From: Armatimonadota bacterium
GTDB lineage: Bacteria; Sysuimicrobiota; Sysuimicrobiia; Sysuimicrobiales; Kaftiobacteriaceae
Direction: 5' to 3'
DNA: 32,396 bases
Assembly (NCBI GenBank): GCA_031081675.1
Contig: JAVHLZ010000001.1
Location: 3,899 to 36,294 of the forward strand
Part shown: positions 3,272-27,558 of the stretch, one piece after another
Layout of the letters: each line of letters begins with the position of its first letter
Numbering within the stretch: position 1 is the stretch's first letter
The notes under the pieces: generated by a model
Told to the model about the DNA's origin: nothing
Databases searched by the model: none
The model's input: only the letters and a program-made list of their open reading frames with translations
Program-made: the position numbers and the translations under genes

Positions 3272-3660
3272 AATCTTCCATCCGCCTACCCGTTGACTGC
3301 GTTGAGGGTGTATTGCACCTGCGGGACCAGCCATCGGGGATCAGGACCTCGTTGAAGGTCCAAGGTTGAAGGTGTACTACGGCTGCGGGATCGGGGATCC
3401 GGCATCCGGGATCAGGGATTTGGATCCGGGATTCGGATCAAGCCCTCACCCTCGCCCTCTCCCGGAGGGAGAGGGAAGGATGTTGCCTGTCGCGCCCTCA
3501 CCCGAACCCTCTCCCACAGGGAAAGGGGAGGTGTTGTCTCTGCCGGGCCCTCACCCTGGCCCTCTCCCGGAGGGAGAGGGGAGAATTTTGAGGGGGAGAG
3601 GGTGAGGGTGAGGGGTCGTGGGGGTGGCGGGCGGGGAGGGTGTCGAATACAGGTGCTGCG
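3272..3660. repeat. Composite repeat: GTTGAAGG block, GGGATC iterations, palindrome array
   Basis: No gene is seen. The gap shows the three repeat modules in order. A GTTGAAGGTCCAAGGTTGAA block at about 3350-3380 has a decayed partner at 3297-3325. Short GGGATC iterations occupy about 3388-3440. C-rich palindrome copies lie at about 3441-3590, followed by a reverse-oriented GAGGGTGAGGGTGAGG piece to about 3616. Confidence 0.85.
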
Positions 3661-4656
3661 ATGAGGATCATGGTGAGGGCGTACGCATCATATCGGGAGG
3701 CCATCGGGGCGCCAGCGGTCAGCGTGGAGGTGCCGGAGGGCGCCACGCCTCAGCAGGTGTGGGCGCACCTGGTCGTCAGGTTTCCCGAACTCCAGAGGCT
3801 ACCTCCCCCGCACAGGTTTGCCGTCAACGAGGAGTACGTAGCGCCGGACAGGGTGCTGGGAGAGAGGGACGAGCTGGTCCTGCTGCCGCCGGTGAGTGGG
3901 GGTCAGGACATACCCCCTCACCCCCGCCCTCTCCCCCATGGGGAGAGGGGAGTGGAGGACTCGCTTGCGGGGACAGTCCCCGGATCCGTTCGGGGACAGT
4001 CCCCGAACCCCGCTGGGGACAGTCACCCGGACCCCCTTCACCCTCGCTCTCTCCCCTCAGGGGACAGGGAAGTGGATGACTCTCCTCCAACGGGGACTGT
4101 CCCCGGGACCAGCGGGGGACAGTCCCCGAACCCCGCTGGGGACAGTCACCCGGACCCCCATGGGGACAGTCCCCCCGAGTCCCCCGGGGACAGTCCCCCT
4201 TATCCCGAACCTCTTCCCCATGGGGAGAGGGAAGGGCACGAGGCGGGGGTGTGGGTGGGGCTGGTGGAGGCGCCGGTCGACGTGGGGGGGATGCTGGAGA
4301 GGGTGCGGCATCCGCAGGCGGGGGCGGTGGTGGTCTTTCTGGGCACGGTGCGGGACAACAGCCGGGGGAGGCGGGTGCAGTTTCTGGAGTACGAGGCGTA
4401 CCGGGAGCTGGCCCTCAAGGAGATGCGGCGTGTGGCGGAGGAAGCCTGCAGGCGGTGGCCGCTGCTGGGGGTGGCCATCGTCCACCGGCTGGGGCGGCTG
4501 GACGTGGGGGAGATCAGCGTGGCCGTGGCGGTCTCCTCGGGTCACCGCACGGAGGCGTTTGAAGCCGGGCGGTTTGCCATCGACACCCTCAAGCAGACGG
4601 TGCCGATCTGGAAGAAGGAGGTGTGGGAGACGGGGGCGGAGTGGGTGGGGGCCTGA
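3661..4656 (+). CDS. MoaD-MoaE fusion (molybdopterin synthase) with repeat-derived linker
   Basis: A 331-residue fusion of both molybdopterin synthase subunits. MoaD (residues 1-81) ends in PPVSGG, the Gly-Gly (80-81) that must become a free thiocarboxylate. MoaE (197-331) keeps GTVRDNSRG, VSSGHR and the catalytic-lysine region KQTVPIWKKE (311-320). The 115-residue linker is built from non-coding repeats. Three palindrome copies read in the same phase (PHPRPLPHGER at 86-96, relatives near 127-138 and 182-191). Eight GGGGACAGTCCCC-type elements lie between, with a 45-bp segment duplicated at 3992 and 4115. The ATG at 3661 is chosen for AGGTG five bases upstream; a GTG at 3640 is less likely. 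A GTG at 4249, with GAGG five bases before it, could give free MoaE. Natural MoaD-MoaE fusions (mycobacterial MoaX) are cleaved after the Gly-Gly. Confidence 0.9.
   Translation: MRIMVRAYASYREAIGAPAVSVEVPEGATPQQVWAHLVVRFPELQRLPPPHRFAVNEEYVAPDRVLGERDELVLLPPVSGGQDIPPHPRPLPHGERGVEDSLAGTVPGSVRGQSPNPAGDSHPDPLHPRSLPSGDREVDDSPPTGTVPGTSGGQSPNPAGDSHPDPHGDSPPESPGDSPPYPEPLPHGEREGHEAGVWVGLVEAPVDVGGMLERVRHPQAGAVVVFLGTVRDNSRGRRVQFLEYEAYRELALKEMRRVAEEACRRWPLLGVAIVHRLGRLDVGEISVAVAVSSGHRTEAFEAGRFAIDTLKQTVPIWKKEVWETGAEWVGA
3909..4236. repeat. Repeat cluster inside the moaD-moaE reading frame
   Basis: C-rich palindrome copies lie at about 3909-3951, 4036-4075 and 4200-4236. The 13-bp palindrome GGGGACAGTCCCC or a one-base variant occurs at 3969, 3992, 4015, 4092, 4115, 4138, 4162 and 4186. 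The stretches 3992-4036 and 4115-4159 are identical over 45 bp, so a recent local duplication enlarged the array. The only other copy of the 13-bp element that I noticed is at 11129-11141. The frame stays open throughout. Confidence 0.92.
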
Positions 4657-13787: not shown

Positions 13788-14067
13788 GTCACCGGCTAGT
13801 GTACACGCTGGCGGGGATGGGCGAAAGTCGGGACCGGGGACGGCAACCGTGGGGTCTGGGATCAGGGACTGCGGCACCCTCCTACTACGTCGAGGGTCCA
13901 AGGTTGAAGTGTACTACCCCTCACCCGCACCCTCTCCCGGAGGGAGAGGGGAAGGTGTCATCTCTCTCCCGGGCCCTCACCCTGGCCCTCTCCCAGAATG
14001 ACCTCTCCCGGCCCTCACCGACTCTCTTCCCCAGAGGGAGGGGAGGTAGCGGGGCGGGGTGCGGGGG
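13788..14067. repeat. GGTCCAAGG block and palindrome array
   Basis: A GGGATCAGGGACTG piece lies at about 13858-13871. GTCGAGGGTCCAAGGTTGAA lies at about 13889-13908, and palindrome copies follow at about 13918-13955 and, decayed, to about 14050. No gene. Confidence 0.8.
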
Positions 14068-15039
14068 CTACAGCTCGCTGCGGACGAGGCGGGCGGCGGC
14101 CACCATGTTGCGCAGCTTGCCGACAGTCTCCTCGATGGTGCGGGTCTTCAGCCCGCAGTCCGGGGAGATGTAGATCTGCTCGACGGGGATGACCTCCATC
14201 GCCCGGCGGATGCCGTCGGCGATCTCCTCCACCGACTCCACCCGGTGGGAGTGGGCGTCCACCACCCCCAGCCCGATGTCCTTGGTGAACGGCGCCGTCT
14301 TGAACGTCTCCAGCAGGGCGAACTCCTCGTTCTTGAGGGCCAGGTCCAGCTGGTGGACGGCCAGGGAGAGCATCGCCGGGTAGATGCGGGGCACGTCGCC
14401 GTAGCAGATGTGGGTCACCGTGTAGGCGCTCAGGCCGTCGGTGACGATCTCCATCGCCTCCCGGGCCAGGTCGAAGTCCTCCTCGGGGCGGGTGTGGATG
14501 GCCGGCTCGTCGATCTGGATGTAGCGGGCGCCGGCCCGCTCCAGGTCCAGGGCCTCCTCGTGGATGGCCCGGGCCAGCTCCAGGACCAGTTCCCGCCGGG
14601 TGGGGTAGTACTCGTTGAACGACCACTCGGCGATGGTGTACGGGCCCGTCAGCATCCCCTTCACCGGCCGCCCGGTCAGCGACTGGGCGAAGGTGAACCA
14701 CTCGACGGTCACCGGCCGGCGGCGGCCCACCGGGCCCACCACCACCGGCTTGGGGTAGTAGCGGTTGCCGTACGACCGCACCAGGCCGGCGATGGCGAAC
14801 CCCTCCATCTCGTCGGCGAAGTAGGCCACCATGTCGCCCCGGTACTGCTCGCCGTCCACCAGCAGGTCCAGGCCGACCTCCTCCTGGATGCGGATCCACT
14901 CCCGGGTCGCCCGGCGCTCCAGCTCGGTCAGTTCCTCTTTGGAAATCTGCCGGCGGGCAAACTTGCGGCGCGCCTCCAGCAGGTAGTCCGGCTTGGGGTA
15001 GCTGCCGACGGCGGTGGTGGGCAGCAGGGGCAGGCTCAT
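14068..15039 (-). CDS. Cobalamin-independent methionine synthase, catalytic core (MetE C-terminal type)
   Basis: A 323-residue single-domain MetE-like methyltransferase. It has the zinc and catalytic residues of the MetE C-terminal barrel: H210 and C212 in VTHICYGDV, C295 in ISPDCGLKTR, plus the substrate-binding IDEPA (177-181). Classical MetE is about 750 residues with two barrels; this is only the catalytic one. Core-MetE proteins in archaea and some bacteria use methyl donors other than folate polyglutamate, such as methylcorrinoid proteins. The ATG at 15039 overlaps the stop of the preceding gene (ATGA), so translation is coupled to a MetE-like partner that lacks zinc ligands. Its natural methyl donor cannot be told from sequence. 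Confidence 0.88.
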   Translation of the reverse strand: MSLPLLPTTAVGSYPKPDYLLEARRKFARRQISKEELTELERRATREWIRIQEEVGLDLLVDGEQYRGDMVAYFADEMEGFAIAGLVRSYGNRYYPKPVVVGPVGRRRPVTVEWFTFAQSLTGRPVKGMLTGPYTIAEWSFNEYYPTRRELVLELARAIHEEALDLERAGARYIQIDEPAIHTRPEEDFDLAREAMEIVTDGLSAYTVTHICYGDVPRIYPAMLSLAVHQLDLALKNEEFALLETFKTAPFTKDIGLGVVDAHSHRVESVEEIADGIRRAMEVIPVEQIYISPDCGLKTRTIEETVGKLRNMVAAARLVRSEL

Positions 15040-16022
15040 GCCCGCGCCTCCCGCAGGACGCCCTCCGCCGCGCGGGCGGCCTCCACCAGACGGGCCAGCT
15101 TGCGCCGGGCCACCCCGCGGGGCAGGAACTCCAGGCCCGCGCTGGGCGCCAGCTGCAGGCGGTCGGGCGGCACCACCTCCGCCAGCCGCCGGACGGCGGC
15201 GACCAGCTCGTCCACCGGCTCCAGGCGGGTGTTGCGGGCATCCAGCAGGCCGGCCATCAGGCCGCGGGTGAACGGCGCCCGGCGGATCACGTCCCAGTTG
15301 CGGTGCCCGGCCACGAAGTCCAGGCCGATCACCTCAAAGGGCAGGTCCAGAATCTGCGGGTACAGGCCGTTGATGTCCCCGAAGTAGGTGGCCAGGACCG
15401 TGCGGGCGGTGACGCCCTCGGTGAGGACGGCCATCGCCTCGGCGAACAGCGGGTAGTCGGCCTTGTGGGCGCACAGGGCCGGCTCGTCCACCTGGATCAC
15501 CTCGGCCCCGGCGGCCTGGAGGGCCCGCAGCTCGCTGTTCAGGGCGCGGGCCAGGGCCAGGGCGAAGTCGCGGTCGGAGGGGTAGTGGCGGTTGCGGCTG
15601 AGCCGGGCCAGGGTGAACGGCCCGGTGACCACGGGCTTGACCGGCCGGGGGCTGTGCCGGCGGGCGAACTCGAAGTCGGCCACGGTGATGGGCTCCACCC
15701 ACGCCACCTCGCCCTCGGCGACGGGCTCCCGGTAGTAGACGTTGGTGTCGAAGTAGCGCTGCAGCCCGTTGATGGAAAAGCCCCGCAGGCGGCGGGCGAA
15801 GTAGGTCTGACCGTCTTCCCACCGGATCTGGCCGTCGGTGATCAGGTCCACGCCGGCGTCCACCTGCTCGCGGATCACCTCCAGGGTGACCTCGTCCTCC
15901 ACCCGGCGCAGCTCGGCCTCGGTCGCCTGGCCCTTCTGGACCTTCTCGACGGTGGTGCGCCAGCGGCCGGGCGCCGGGGGATCGGGGATCTTGGGGTAGC
16001 TGCCGATCACGGTGGTGATCAC
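15036..16022 (-). CDS. MetE-like barrel without zinc ligands (MetE N-terminal-type partner)
   Basis: A 328-residue protein with the same fold as the next gene (start VITTVIGSYPK, QVDEPAL at 177-183). The zinc ligands are absent: Ala and Tyr (211, 213, in VLATYFGDI) replace His and Cys, and Ala295 (LAPSAGLEFLP) replaces the last Cys. TYFGDI and APS.GLE resemble the N-terminal barrel of full-length MetE, which also lacks zinc and helps bind the folate substrate. The pair may therefore be a MetE split into two subunits, coupled by an ATGA overlap. The start is GTG at 16022, with GAGGG seven bases upstream. The frame stays open further upstream only through palindrome DNA, which encodes an LSLRERARVRAGE-type peptide and is not taken as coding. 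Confidence 0.84.
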   Translation of the reverse strand: MITTVIGSYPKIPDPPAPGRWRTTVEKVQKGQATEAELRRVEDEVTLEVIREQVDAGVDLITDGQIRWEDGQTYFARRLRGFSINGLQRYFDTNVYYREPVAEGEVAWVEPITVADFEFARRHSPRPVKPVVTGPFTLARLSRNRHYPSDRDFALALARALNSELRALQAAGAEVIQVDEPALCAHKADYPLFAEAMAVLTEGVTARTVLATYFGDINGLYPQILDLPFEVIGLDFVAGHRNWDVIRRAPFTRGLMAGLLDARNTRLEPVDELVAAVRRLAEVVPPDRLQLAPSAGLEFLPRGVARRKLARLVEAARAAEGVLREARA

Positions 16023-16277
16023 TGGTCGGCCCTCACTCTGTTCCTCACCTAGCCCTCTCCCCACCCTCTCCCCTGCCCTCACCCTCGCCCTCTCCCGGAG
16101 GGAGAGGGGAAGGGGTGTCATCTCTCTCTCCCCTGCCCTCACCAGCCCTCTTCCGGAGGGAGAGGGAAAGGTGTCATCTCTCTCCCCTGCCCTCACCCCG
16201 CCCTCTCCCGGAGGGAGAGGGAGGTGTTACGTCGCTCAAAAGGAGAGGGGGGTGGTTTGTTTTGCGCTTCCGTTAGT
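16023..16277. repeat. Palindrome array within the methionine gene block
   Basis: Three palindrome copies lie at about 16076-16110, 16135-16172 and 16188-16232, with lead-in fragments from about 16030. No gene and no SAM-riboswitch-like fold is evident. The array separates two genes of the same pathway on one strand. Confidence 0.85.
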
Positions 16278-18134
16278 TTAGGGTACCGCCGCGCGGCGCG
16301 CAAGGCGGACGAGTTCCAGCACCGCATCGAAGCGGCCGAAGGACGGAATCAGGTACAGGCCGGCCACCCGGCCGCGGATCGCCTCGACGAGGGCGTGGGC
16401 GATGCGGATGCCCTCGGCCCTGGCGTCGGTGGCCAGCCGCATCCGCTCCCGGACCCAGTCGGGCACGCGGAAGCCGGGCACCTCGTTGTGCAGGAACTCG
16501 GCATGGCGGTGGCTGACCAGGGGCAGCACTCCCACCAGGGTCGGCAGGGGCAGCCCGCCGGCCACACGCAGGAAGCGGTCCAGCACCTCCGGGTCGTAGA
16601 TGGGCATGGTGCAGATGAAGTCGGCGCCGGCCCGCACCTTGCGCTCCAGGACCCGGACTTCCCGGTCCAGATCCGCCGCCGCCAGGTTGAGGGCCACCCC
16701 GACCGTGAAGGCGGTAGGCGCCCCGATGGGGTTGCCCGACTGGTCGCGGCCGCGGTTGAACTCCTTGATCAGGCGCACCAGTCCTGAGGGGGTGACGTCG
16801 GAGACGGCCGTGGCGTTGGGATAGTCGCCCATCTGGGGCGGGTCGCCCCGCAGGACCAGGACGTTGCGCACGCCCAGGGCGTGCACCGCCAGCAGGTCCG
16901 ACTGCAGCCGCACCAGGTTGCGGTCCCGGGTGGTGAAGTGCAGGACCGTCTCCAGCCCGACCTCGCTCTGGATCCGGGCGCACATGGCCCACGGGCTCAT
17001 CCGCAGCCGGGCCAGGGGGTTGTCGGCGACGTCCACGGCGTCCACCCCGGCCTCCTGCAGGCGCCGGCAGCCGTCCAGCTCCCGCCGGTCCTGCGCCCCG
17101 CGGGGAGGATCCACCTCCACCGTGATCACGAAGGTCCGGCCCAGCTTCTGGGCCAGCGGCGTGGGCTCCGGGCGCGCTGCGGGTTCCTCGGCGGGCGGCC
17201 GGGCCGGAGGAAACTCCACCACCGCCGTGGTGACGGCGGGGGCGGGGCCGGCCAGGGCCTCCCGCATGGCGGCGATGTGCTCGGGGGTGGTGCCGCAGCA
17301 CCCGCCGACGATCCGCGCGCCGAGCGCGGCCATCTGGCGGGCGTGGCCGGCCATGTAGGAAGGCGTGGAGACGTAGATGTAGCGGCCGCCCACGTAGGCG
17401 GGAAAGCCGGCGTTGGGCATCGCCGACAGGAAGACCGCGGGCGAGGCGGCGGCCATGCGCTGGATCACCTGGAGGATCCCCAGCGACCCCACGCTGCAGT
17501 TGGCCCCCACCACGTCCACCGGCAGCGCCTCCAGCGTCCGCACGATCTCCGCCGGCTCGTGGCCCAGCAGGGTCCGGCCCTCCTGGGTGAAGGTCATCTG
17601 GGCGATCAGAGGGACGTCGGTGGCATCCCGCACGCCCCGCACCGCCTCCACCAGCTCGGCGAGGTCGGTGAACGTCTCCAGGATCAGGACGTCGCACCCG
17701 CCCTCCACCAGGGCCGCCGCCTGCTCGGCGTAGGCCTGGCGGACCTCCTCCGGACTGACGGCGCCCAGGGGGGCCATGGGGCGGCCGATGGGCCCCATCG
17801 AGCCCGCCACGAACACCGGGCGGCCCGCCGCGTCGGCGGTCTCCCGGGCGAGGGCCGCGCCGGCCCGGTTGATCTCGCCCAGGCGGTGAGCCAGGGCGTG
17901 CTGGGCGAGCTTGAACCGGTTGGCGCCGAAGGTGTTGGTCTCGATCAGCTCGGCGCCGCTGTGGATGTAGTCCAGGTGGATCTGGCGGACCAGGTCGGGC
18001 CGGGTGAGGTTGAGGGCGTCAAAGCACTGGTCAAACGGCACGCCGCGGGCGTAGAGCTGGGTGCCCATGGCGCCGTCGGCCAGCAGGACGCCTTCCTGCA
18101 GGCGCTCCAGAAATGGGTGAGCTGACCGGTGCAT
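16278..18134 (-). CDS. Bifunctional homocysteine S-methyltransferase / methylenetetrahydrofolate reductase
   Basis: A 618-residue fusion like Bacillus YitJ. Residues 1-295 are a homocysteine methyltransferase barrel as in the first module of MetH. It starts LLADGAMGTQLYARG and binds zinc through C213 (GANCSVG) and C279/C280 (GGCCGTTP). Residues about 330-618 are an FAD-dependent methylenetetrahydrofolate reductase (FVITVEVDPPRG, VLRGDPPQMGDYPNA). Residues about 298-328 are a Pro/Ala/Glu linker. The reductase makes 5-methyl-THF and the first module methylates homocysteine. No cobalamin domain is present. The ATG at 18134 lacks a close ribosome site. Two MetE-like genes follow on the same strand. 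The acyl-CoA dehydrogenase gene ends 66 bp upstream, so they may share a transcript. Confidence 0.92.
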   Translation of the reverse strand: MHRSAHPFLERLQEGVLLADGAMGTQLYARGVPFDQCFDALNLTRPDLVRQIHLDYIHSGAELIETNTFGANRFKLAQHALAHRLGEINRAGAALARETADAAGRPVFVAGSMGPIGRPMAPLGAVSPEEVRQAYAEQAAALVEGGCDVLILETFTDLAELVEAVRGVRDATDVPLIAQMTFTQEGRTLLGHEPAEIVRTLEALPVDVVGANCSVGSLGILQVIQRMAAASPAVFLSAMPNAGFPAYVGGRYIYVSTPSYMAGHARQMAALGARIVGGCCGTTPEHIAAMREALAGPAPAVTTAVVEFPPARPPAEEPAARPEPTPLAQKLGRTFVITVEVDPPRGAQDRRELDGCRRLQEAGVDAVDVADNPLARLRMSPWAMCARIQSEVGLETVLHFTTRDRNLVRLQSDLLAVHALGVRNVLVLRGDPPQMGDYPNATAVSDVTPSGLVRLIKEFNRGRDQSGNPIGAPTAFTVGVALNLAAADLDREVRVLERKVRAGADFICTMPIYDPEVLDRFLRVAGGLPLPTLVGVLPLVSHRHAEFLHNEVPGFRVPDWVRERMRLATDARAEGIRIAHALVEAIRGRVAGLYLIPSFGRFDAVLELVRLARRAAVP

Positions 18135-26334: not shown

Positions 26335-27558
26335 TCACGTCGTTTTCCCCCGACCTGCGCCATCTCCCTGCCTCTCGGAGGACCAGGTCGGGCCGGCCTC
26401 CACCGGATACTGTTCGTTCATCCACGCCACGATCCCGCCAGCCAGGTTGACGGCGCGGTCGTAGCCGGCGGCCCGCAGGGTCTCGGTCACCGTGGCGCTG
26501 CGCTGGCCGGTGGCGCAGAAGACGATGGTGGTGCGGTCCCGCGGGATCTCCTCCAGCCGCCGGGGGACCTCGGCCATCGGGATGAACAGCGCGCCGGGAA
26601 TGCGGGCGGTGACCCACTCCCACTCCTCCCGCACGTCCAGCAGGACGGCCTCGCCCCGCTCGACCAGGGCCCGGGCCTCGGCCGGGCCTACCTCGGGGAT
26701 GGTCCGGGCGGCCGCCGGCTGGGGCTGGGGGTGCGGCCGCGGGACGCCGCAGAACGCCTCGTAGTCGATCAGCTGGGTGATGGTGGGGCGGTCGCCGCAG
26801 ACCGGGCAGTCGGGGTTGCGGCTCCAGCGGACGGTGCGGATCTCCGCGGCCAGCGCGTCCACGATGAGCAGGCGGTTGACCAGCGTCTCGCCCCGCCCCA
26901 GGAGGATCTTGATGGTCTCCAGCGCCTGCAGGGTGCCCATGAATCCCGCCACGGCGCCGATGATGCCGCCCTCGGCGCAGCTGGGCACCGTGCCGGGCGG
27001 CGGAGGCGTGGGGAACAGGCACCGGTAGCAGCCGCGGCCGGGCACAAAGACGGTGGCGTGGCCCTCCCACCGCAGGATGCTGGCGTCCACCAGGGGCTTG
27101 CCCAGGAACACGCAGGCGTCGTTCACCAGGTAGCGGGTGGGGAAGTTGTCGGAGCCGTTCACCACCACCTCGTAGTCGGCGATGATGTCCAGGGCGTTCT
27201 CGCTGCTGAGGACGGTCTGGTGCGGAATCACGGTCACGTCGGGGTTGATGTCTTCCAGGGTCCGCCGCGCCGACTGGGTCTTGGGGCGCCCGATGTCGTG
27301 GGTGAAGTGGAGGATCTGGCGGTGCAGGTTGGACAGGTCCACCCGGTCGCCGTCCACGATCCCCAGGGTCCCCACCCCGGCCGCCGCCAGGTACAGGGCG
27401 GCGGGGCTGCCCAGGCCGCCGGCGCCGACGATCAGGACCTTGCTGTCCAGCAGGCGGCGCTGCCCGGCCAGGCCGACCTCCTCCAGGATGGTCTGCCGCG
27501 AGTACCGCTCCATCTGCTCGGCGGTGAGCAGCGGACCAGGTCGGGTGACCAGCGTCAT
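26335..27558 (-). CDS. MoeB/ThiF-type adenylyltransferase fused to rhodanese (MoeZ-like)
   Basis: A 407-residue E1-like enzyme that adenylates the C-terminal Gly of a sulfur carrier such as MoaD, ThiS or CysO, with a rhodanese domain that supplies sulfur. E1 part: ATP loop GAGGLGSP (45-52), DLSNLHRQILH, NGSDNFPTRY, conserved Cys C194 (VPSCAEGG) and zinc Cys C177, C180, C251 and C254. Rhodanese part, about 287-385: active-site Cys C348 (IVFCATGQRS). This is the expected activator of the MoaD half of the fusion at 3661-4656. The ATG at 27558 has GAGGAGG about eight bases upstream. The promoter is probably the extended -10 at 27605-27613. The last 20 residues are a disordered tail. Confidence 0.93.
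   Translation of the reverse strand: MTLVTRPGPLLTAEQMERYSRQTILEEVGLAGQRRLLDSKVLIVGAGGLGSPAALYLAAAGVGTLGIVDGDRVDLSNLHRQILHFTHDIGRPKTQSARRTLEDINPDVTVIPHQTVLSSENALDIIADYEVVVNGSDNFPTRYLVNDACVFLGKPLVDASILRWEGHATVFVPGRGCYRCLFPTPPPPGTVPSCAEGGIIGAVAGFMGTLQALETIKILLGRGETLVNRLLIVDALAAEIRTVRWSRNPDCPVCGDRPTITQLIDYEAFCGVPRPHPQPQPAAARTIPEVGPAEARALVERGEAVLLDVREEWEWVTARIPGALFIPMAEVPRRLEEIPRDRTTIVFCATGQRSATVTETLRAAGYDRAVNLAGGIVAWMNEQYPVEAGPTWSSERQGDGAGRGKTT

Follow-up and report, generated by a model that had tools for sequence, protein, structure and literature searches.

Do two small neighbouring genes of an Armatimonadota bacterium, each encoding a single barrel of the methionine synthase superfamily, together specify one cobalamin-independent methionine synthase (MetE), the one-chain form of which contains both barrels? 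A first-pass annotation, made from the letters alone, had proposed a two-subunit methionine synthase. Our analysis of the window (the whole stretch of 32,396 nucleotides), of its 98% complete source genome and of homologues elsewhere supports this proposal by the tree, the overlap of the genes, their order, their co-occurrence and the retained methyl-folate and homocysteine positions. We conclude that the two proteins, the partner P0002 and the core P0001, are very probably the two subunits of a split MetE, and we infer that they form an active complex.

The gene pair and its surroundings

Both genes lie on the minus strand, where the partner P0002 (15036..16022; 328 aa from a GTG start chosen by homology), a zinc-less protein resembling the MetE N-barrel, precedes the core P0001 (14068..15039; 323 aa from an ATG start), which is the MetE catalytic zinc/homocysteine barrel. 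The two adjacent barrels with an ATGA overlap that had been described are found in place, with the start of P0001 overlapping the stop of P0002 at 15036..15039 (minus strand). Upstream of both, on the same strand, stands a gene for a bifunctional homocysteine S-methyltransferase/methylenetetrahydrofolate reductase (16278..18134; 618 aa; NCBIfam PRK08645, 718 bits), hereafter the MTHFR fusion. Regulation by a known RNA found no support, as neither the window nor any of five relatives had an Rfam match that reached the gathering score.

Several further features of the window were noted. A palindromic element of about 44 bases with the core CCCTCTCCCGGAGGGAGAGGG occurs in at least 35 copies between positions 237 and 29723, many of them intergenic, and flanks the pair on both sides (e.g., 13917-13960 and 16075-16231). 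Another cluster of short repeats (3968-4198) comprises a GGGGACAGTCCCC palindrome with three 69-base and four 27-base copies. Finally, a ThiS-MoaE fusion and a ThiF-rhodanese protein (3640-4656 and 26335-27558) suggest sulphur-carrier or molybdopterin genes nearby.

Family and fold of the two proteins

The assignment of P0001 is straightforward: it matches the Pfam model Meth_synt_2 (PF01717) with 285 bits and the NCBIfam model PRK04326 ("methionine synthase") with 419 bits, above the cut-off of 406, and its predicted single-chain model (pLDDT 92.6) superimposes on residues 399-732 of T. maritima MetE with Z 41.7 and rmsd 1.8 over 323 residues at 40% identity. As a separate Meth_synt_2 protein of 323 aa, within the limit of 400 aa, it has the form of a split-MetE catalytic subunit, and P0002, a separate protein with a Meth_synt_1 match (PF08267, 102.6 bits, cut-off 27), has that of the partner.

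The first-pass annotation had further likened P0002 to the MetE N-barrel, which holds for the diagnostic columns (an aromatic residue before F/Y-D/N, Tyr for Cys, and the N of D-A-R-N) and for the tree described below, but not for the overall score, which lies nearer the catalytic Pfam model (135.2 bits for PF01717); no NCBIfam model reaches its cut-off. The predicted single-chain model (pLDDT 89.7) shows the long beta-2 hairpin and fits both MetE barrels at Z about 30-36, the fold alone not being decisive between N- and C-barrel. Price et al. require the Meth_synt_1 score of a partner to exceed its Meth_synt_2 score and name one pair as excluded (PMC7857596); with 102.6 versus 135.2 bits, P0002 would be passed over as well. 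This is, however, a search rule and not a property of the enzyme.

Substrate sites and probable methyl donor

Ser13, Glu64, and Asp177 of P0001, corresponding to S433, E484, and D599 of the E. coli homocysteine site, are invariant in a 20-row alignment (A2). The pterin-stacking Trp139 (T. maritima W539) is present in 50/50 split or fused catalytic rows and in none of four stand-alone homologues, and Arg93 is kept in the core while being absent from haloarchaeal cores. Of the partner residues, Arg89 takes the pterin-contacting Lys position in 45/45 split partners, whereas 7/7 fused MetEs have Lys, and the position of Arg22 is basic in 39 of 45 split partners, the exceptions being six partners of a diverged type (family f5). 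Both were equated with T. maritima Lys104 and Lys18, respectively, by motif and offset, the T. maritima N half being only partly aligned. The pterin-anchoring Glu (T. maritima E583) is T183 in P0001; it is absent from every one of the 41 split catalytic rows that have letters at this column, haloarchaeal ones included, but present in 7/7 fused MetEs, so that folate binding is not identical to that of the fused enzyme.

The same Glu is also missing from the four stand-alone homologues, which, together with the overall resemblance of P0002 to catalytic barrels, could point to a corrinoid-dependent core synthase of the MesA/MesB kind, with P0002 docking a methyl-corrinoid protein. We regard this as unlikely, because the source genome has no match to B12-binding_2 (the MetH signature) or to CdhD/CoFeSP (PF03599), its one B12-binding domain adjoins a gene that we take to encode a methylmalonyl-CoA mutase, the pterin Trp is kept, and an MTHFR lies upstream. 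As this fusion adjoining the pair is the one MTHFR of the genome, and as B12-binding_2 and CdhD are lacking, methyl-folate is the likely donor of the split pair. Elsewhere in the phylum, strong CdhD and B12-binding_2 matches occur in four genomes without the pair (G013, G026, G032, G034), the pair together with CdhD in three (G014, G017, G038), and the pair with a weaker B12-binding_2 match in six (G016, G019, G020, G022, G023, G031). MesX (DUF1852) was matched neither in the source genome nor in any control genome.

The pair accounts for the only two PF01717 genes of the source genome. Three S-methyl_trans domains, which could be further methylators of homocysteine, are also encoded, one of them within the upstream fusion; the others belong to two adjacent genes (L084, 1474-3355) that score below every NCBIfam cut-off. 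Because of these two further genes, the pair cannot be called the sole methionine synthase.

The zinc site

P0001 had been credited with all zinc ligands. This is borne out for His210 and Cys212 (within H-I-C, codons at 14404..14412) and for Cys295 (14155..14157), whereas the fourth ligand of MetE, a Glu (E. coli E665), is replaced by Ala234 (14338..14340; all minus strand). The alignment has no gap here, the position lying 24 residues past the zinc His in P0001, E. coli MetE and 29 readable loci alike, and neither Glu nor Asp stands in this column; an aspartate, Asp232, is located two residues before. For P0002, the reported lack of the three ligands is correct: the positions read A211, Y213, and A295, and Tyr213 (15384..15386, minus strand) is the Tyr that the MetE N-barrel has in place of Cys, seen as Tyr232 in T. 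maritima (PMC539065).

These patterns extend well beyond the present locus. Leaving out two cut rows, the zinc His, Cys, and Cys are kept in 52/52 rows of the catalytic side that have letters there. At the first Cys position, 51 of the 52 zinc-less rows carry Tyr, Trp, or Phe and a single f5 row carries Cys, while the His is kept in 4 of these rows and the second Cys in 20; all 52 partner or N-half rows have Asp at the E665 column. On the catalytic side, this column reads Ala in all 25 main-type cores of the phylum with letters but Glu in the 27 other rows, and in a second extraction (30 loci, one cut and 29 readable) 26 main-type cores had Ala and 3 f5 cores had Glu. The Ala-for-Glu change across the main-type cores of the phylum is new here, and searches of the open-licence PMC literature yielded no report either of this change or of the bacterial split-MetE branch.

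Such a uniform loss (26 of 26 main-type cores examined have Ala at the position of Ala234) might indicate that the Glu-less pair carries out some other zinc-thiol methyl transfer, with methionine made by the S-methyl_trans half of the fusion or by the paralogues; the genome has three S-methyl_trans domains, and the fusion keeps ANCS and GGCC motifs, which presumably form its zinc site. We nevertheless consider this quite improbable, given that the homocysteine-binding residues are invariant in A2, that the genome has no MetH signature and no PF01717 match other than the pair, and that the core shows a mean identity of 76% across 25 phylum rows. As regards the split MetE itself, the Glu ligand of MetE leaves the zinc upon homocysteine binding (PMC539065); its loss is therefore compatible with catalysis and, judging from sequence, need not stop it in the main-type clade. 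Points that speak against the split-MetE reading are this Ala, the missing pterin Glu, the higher score of P0002 on the catalytic Pfam model, the unlinked genes of G012 and G051, and the three S-methyl_trans domains of the genome. Present throughout a whole clade, the Ala-for-Glu change offers a natural variant for probing what the fourth zinc ligand does.

Phylogeny of partner and core

For phylogenetic analysis, we extracted 106 homologous rows, which came from the phylum itself, from other phyla, from plasmids of haloarchaea and bacteria, and from fused MetEs. The main tree used 71 of them, after near copies had been thinned and two cores cut by contig ends (L018_C and L039_C) left out. All 36 catalytic-side rows fall on one side of a branch with 100/100 support and all 35 zinc-less rows on the other; the zinc-less side takes in the partners found here together with three partners from haloarchaea and the N halves of seven fused MetEs. 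A tree in which the partners and cores of the phylum form a clade was 314 log units worse (p-AU 1e-64). In a second tree of 46 rows, from which the haloarchaeal, f5, L060, and L031 partners were left out, the fused N halves and the bacterial partners remain united with 100/100 support, and a duplication arising independently in bacteria was rejected (p 1.3e-4). Some rows were flagged for long branches and skewed composition. The mirror-tree correlation of partner and core (r 0.957 over 47 pairs) is inflated by shared ancestry and carries no weight as evidence.

The first-pass annotation had named a recent tandem duplication of the core as the outcome that would overturn its reading; this test was run, and lineage-specific duplication is rejected, under the model used, by the 100/100 branch between N and C sides and both tree tests. 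That P0002 might be such a duplicate, having lost its zinc and now being regulatory or decaying, is accordingly very hard to credit in spite of its 36% identity to P0001 and its 135 bits on the catalytic Pfam model, as it also shares the N-barrel columns and as a mean identity of 64% across 25 phylum partners argues against decay.

Distribution and gene linkage

Of the 43 genomes of the phylum, 34 carry a split pair (28 of the main type and 6 of the diverged f5 type) and 9 have neither. In one genome without the pair (G001, 77% complete), a fragment of the core at the end of a contig is all that is present; contig ends also truncate the core in G002 and G014. The two genes are neighbours in each of the 6 f5-type genomes and in 27 of the 28 main-type ones, G012 being the unlinked case. 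The 18 other bacteria examined include one with an adjacent pair (G060) and one with an unlinked pair (G051). An additional set of 11 loci comprised 6 outside the phylum, the other 5 coming from genomes already counted. In all 42 adjacent pairs examined the partner comes first, and 38 show the 4-base overlap (37 ATG/GTG and one TTG, L030); the remainder have a 1-base overlap (L039, L060) or short gaps (L053, L055).

The MTHFR fusion lies upstream of the pair in 8/8 genomes of family f1 that have the partner, in G014, and in two of the six loci outside the phylum (L038, L039); the flanks examined in the remaining 19 main-type genomes showed none. A methylenetetrahydromethanopterin reductase adjoins the Halobellus pair.

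Two side observations concern relatives of the pair. The f5 loci (L052-L057) represent a second, diverged pair type, the catalytic subunit of which mostly lacks the N-terminal TT-x-GS and keeps the Glu ligand. Moreover, distant proteins of the MetE superfamily (L079, L080, L081) occur outside the pair in several genomes of the phylum.

Proposed mechanism

In the proposed split MetE, translational coupling via the overlap would yield equal amounts of P0002 and P0001, the barrels of which may pack against each other face to face, as they do in one-chain MetE. The 5-methyl-THF would be made by the MTHFR fusion from the upstream gene; the folate could then sit in the cleft, where Trp139 and Arg93 on the P0001 side and Arg22 and Arg89 on the P0002 side would hold it, and pass its methyl group straight to the zinc-bound homocysteine. 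Asp232 or water might fill the ligand place left vacant by Glu at Ala234.

Evolution and significance

According to Deobald et al., fused MetE derived from a duplicated core (PMC7005905). Among 14 pairs of halves listed, P0001 and P0002 are 36% identical, as compared to 15-19% in four fused MetEs and 21 and 29% in two haloarchaeal pairs. The greater similarity relative to fused MetE is a new observation and hints, at the level of sequence, that two genes preceded the fusion. Split pairs occur in haloarchaea, in f5, and in the bacterial branch, and one fusion is simpler than three fissions; this argument is one of parsimony only, because, although the C halves of fused MetEs cluster with the split cores of the bacterial branch in the 71-row tree (100/98), the split cores exclusive of fused MetE are supported at 63/86, too low to fix whether fused MetE nests inside them. 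We therefore offer only tentatively, and as somewhat less than an even chance, the scenario in which the bacterial split pair is the unfused sister of one-chain MetE: two overlapping genes would be the original state in bacteria and archaea, a single later fusion would have created the one-chain enzyme, and the pair of the phylum would then have dropped the Glu, performing MetE chemistry on a three-residue His/Cys/Cys zinc site. If true, the Glu-less pair would be a natural test of the need for a Glu zinc ligand.

A bacterial split-MetE branch that would be missed by the Pfam rule of Price et al. is likewise new here; with it, split MetE reaches beyond archaea into bacteria, where the branch is widespread. 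Since a rule based on Pfam scores would overlook it, uncultured bacteria may be predicted too often to be methionine auxotrophs. The bacterial pairs also provide slowly diverging sequences for tracing the origin of the double-barrel MetE.

Comparison with known systems

The portion of the CSP1-3 paper that was available mentions methionine once, in a different context (PMC11604079). The closest known system is the split MetE defined by Price et al. in 2021, mainly archaeal, with examples in Halobacteria, Thermoprotei, and Sulfobacillus sp. hq2 as well as PF1268/PF1269 of Pyrococcus furiosus, a pair that forms a complex (PMC7857596). It likewise consists of separate zinc-less and catalytic subunits, usually encoded side by side, and pairs on haloarchaeal plasmids (L044, L045, L072) have the same gene order and 4-base overlap as P0002/P0001. 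The present pair differs in belonging to a bacterial branch and in having a partner that does not follow the Meth_synt_1 over Meth_synt_2 rule; moreover, three haloarchaeal cores keep the Glu zinc ligand that the main-type bacterial core lacks.

A second comparison is offered by the core methionine synthases MesA-MesD, which work without an N-barrel partner (PMC7857596). Like P0001, they are single zinc barrels of the same superfamily; unlike it, MesD and three other stand-alone homologues lack the pterin Trp (the alignment left out MesA, MesB, and MesC). One-chain MetE of E. coli and T. maritima (1xdj/1t7l), the structure and residues of which were described by Pejchal and Ludwig (PMC539065), shares both barrels and the same N- and C-barrel signatures with the split pair, whereas the pair has no linker, no pterin Glu (E583), Ala in place of the Glu zinc ligand and, by alignment, a core that lacks the six-residue beta-4 loop insert.
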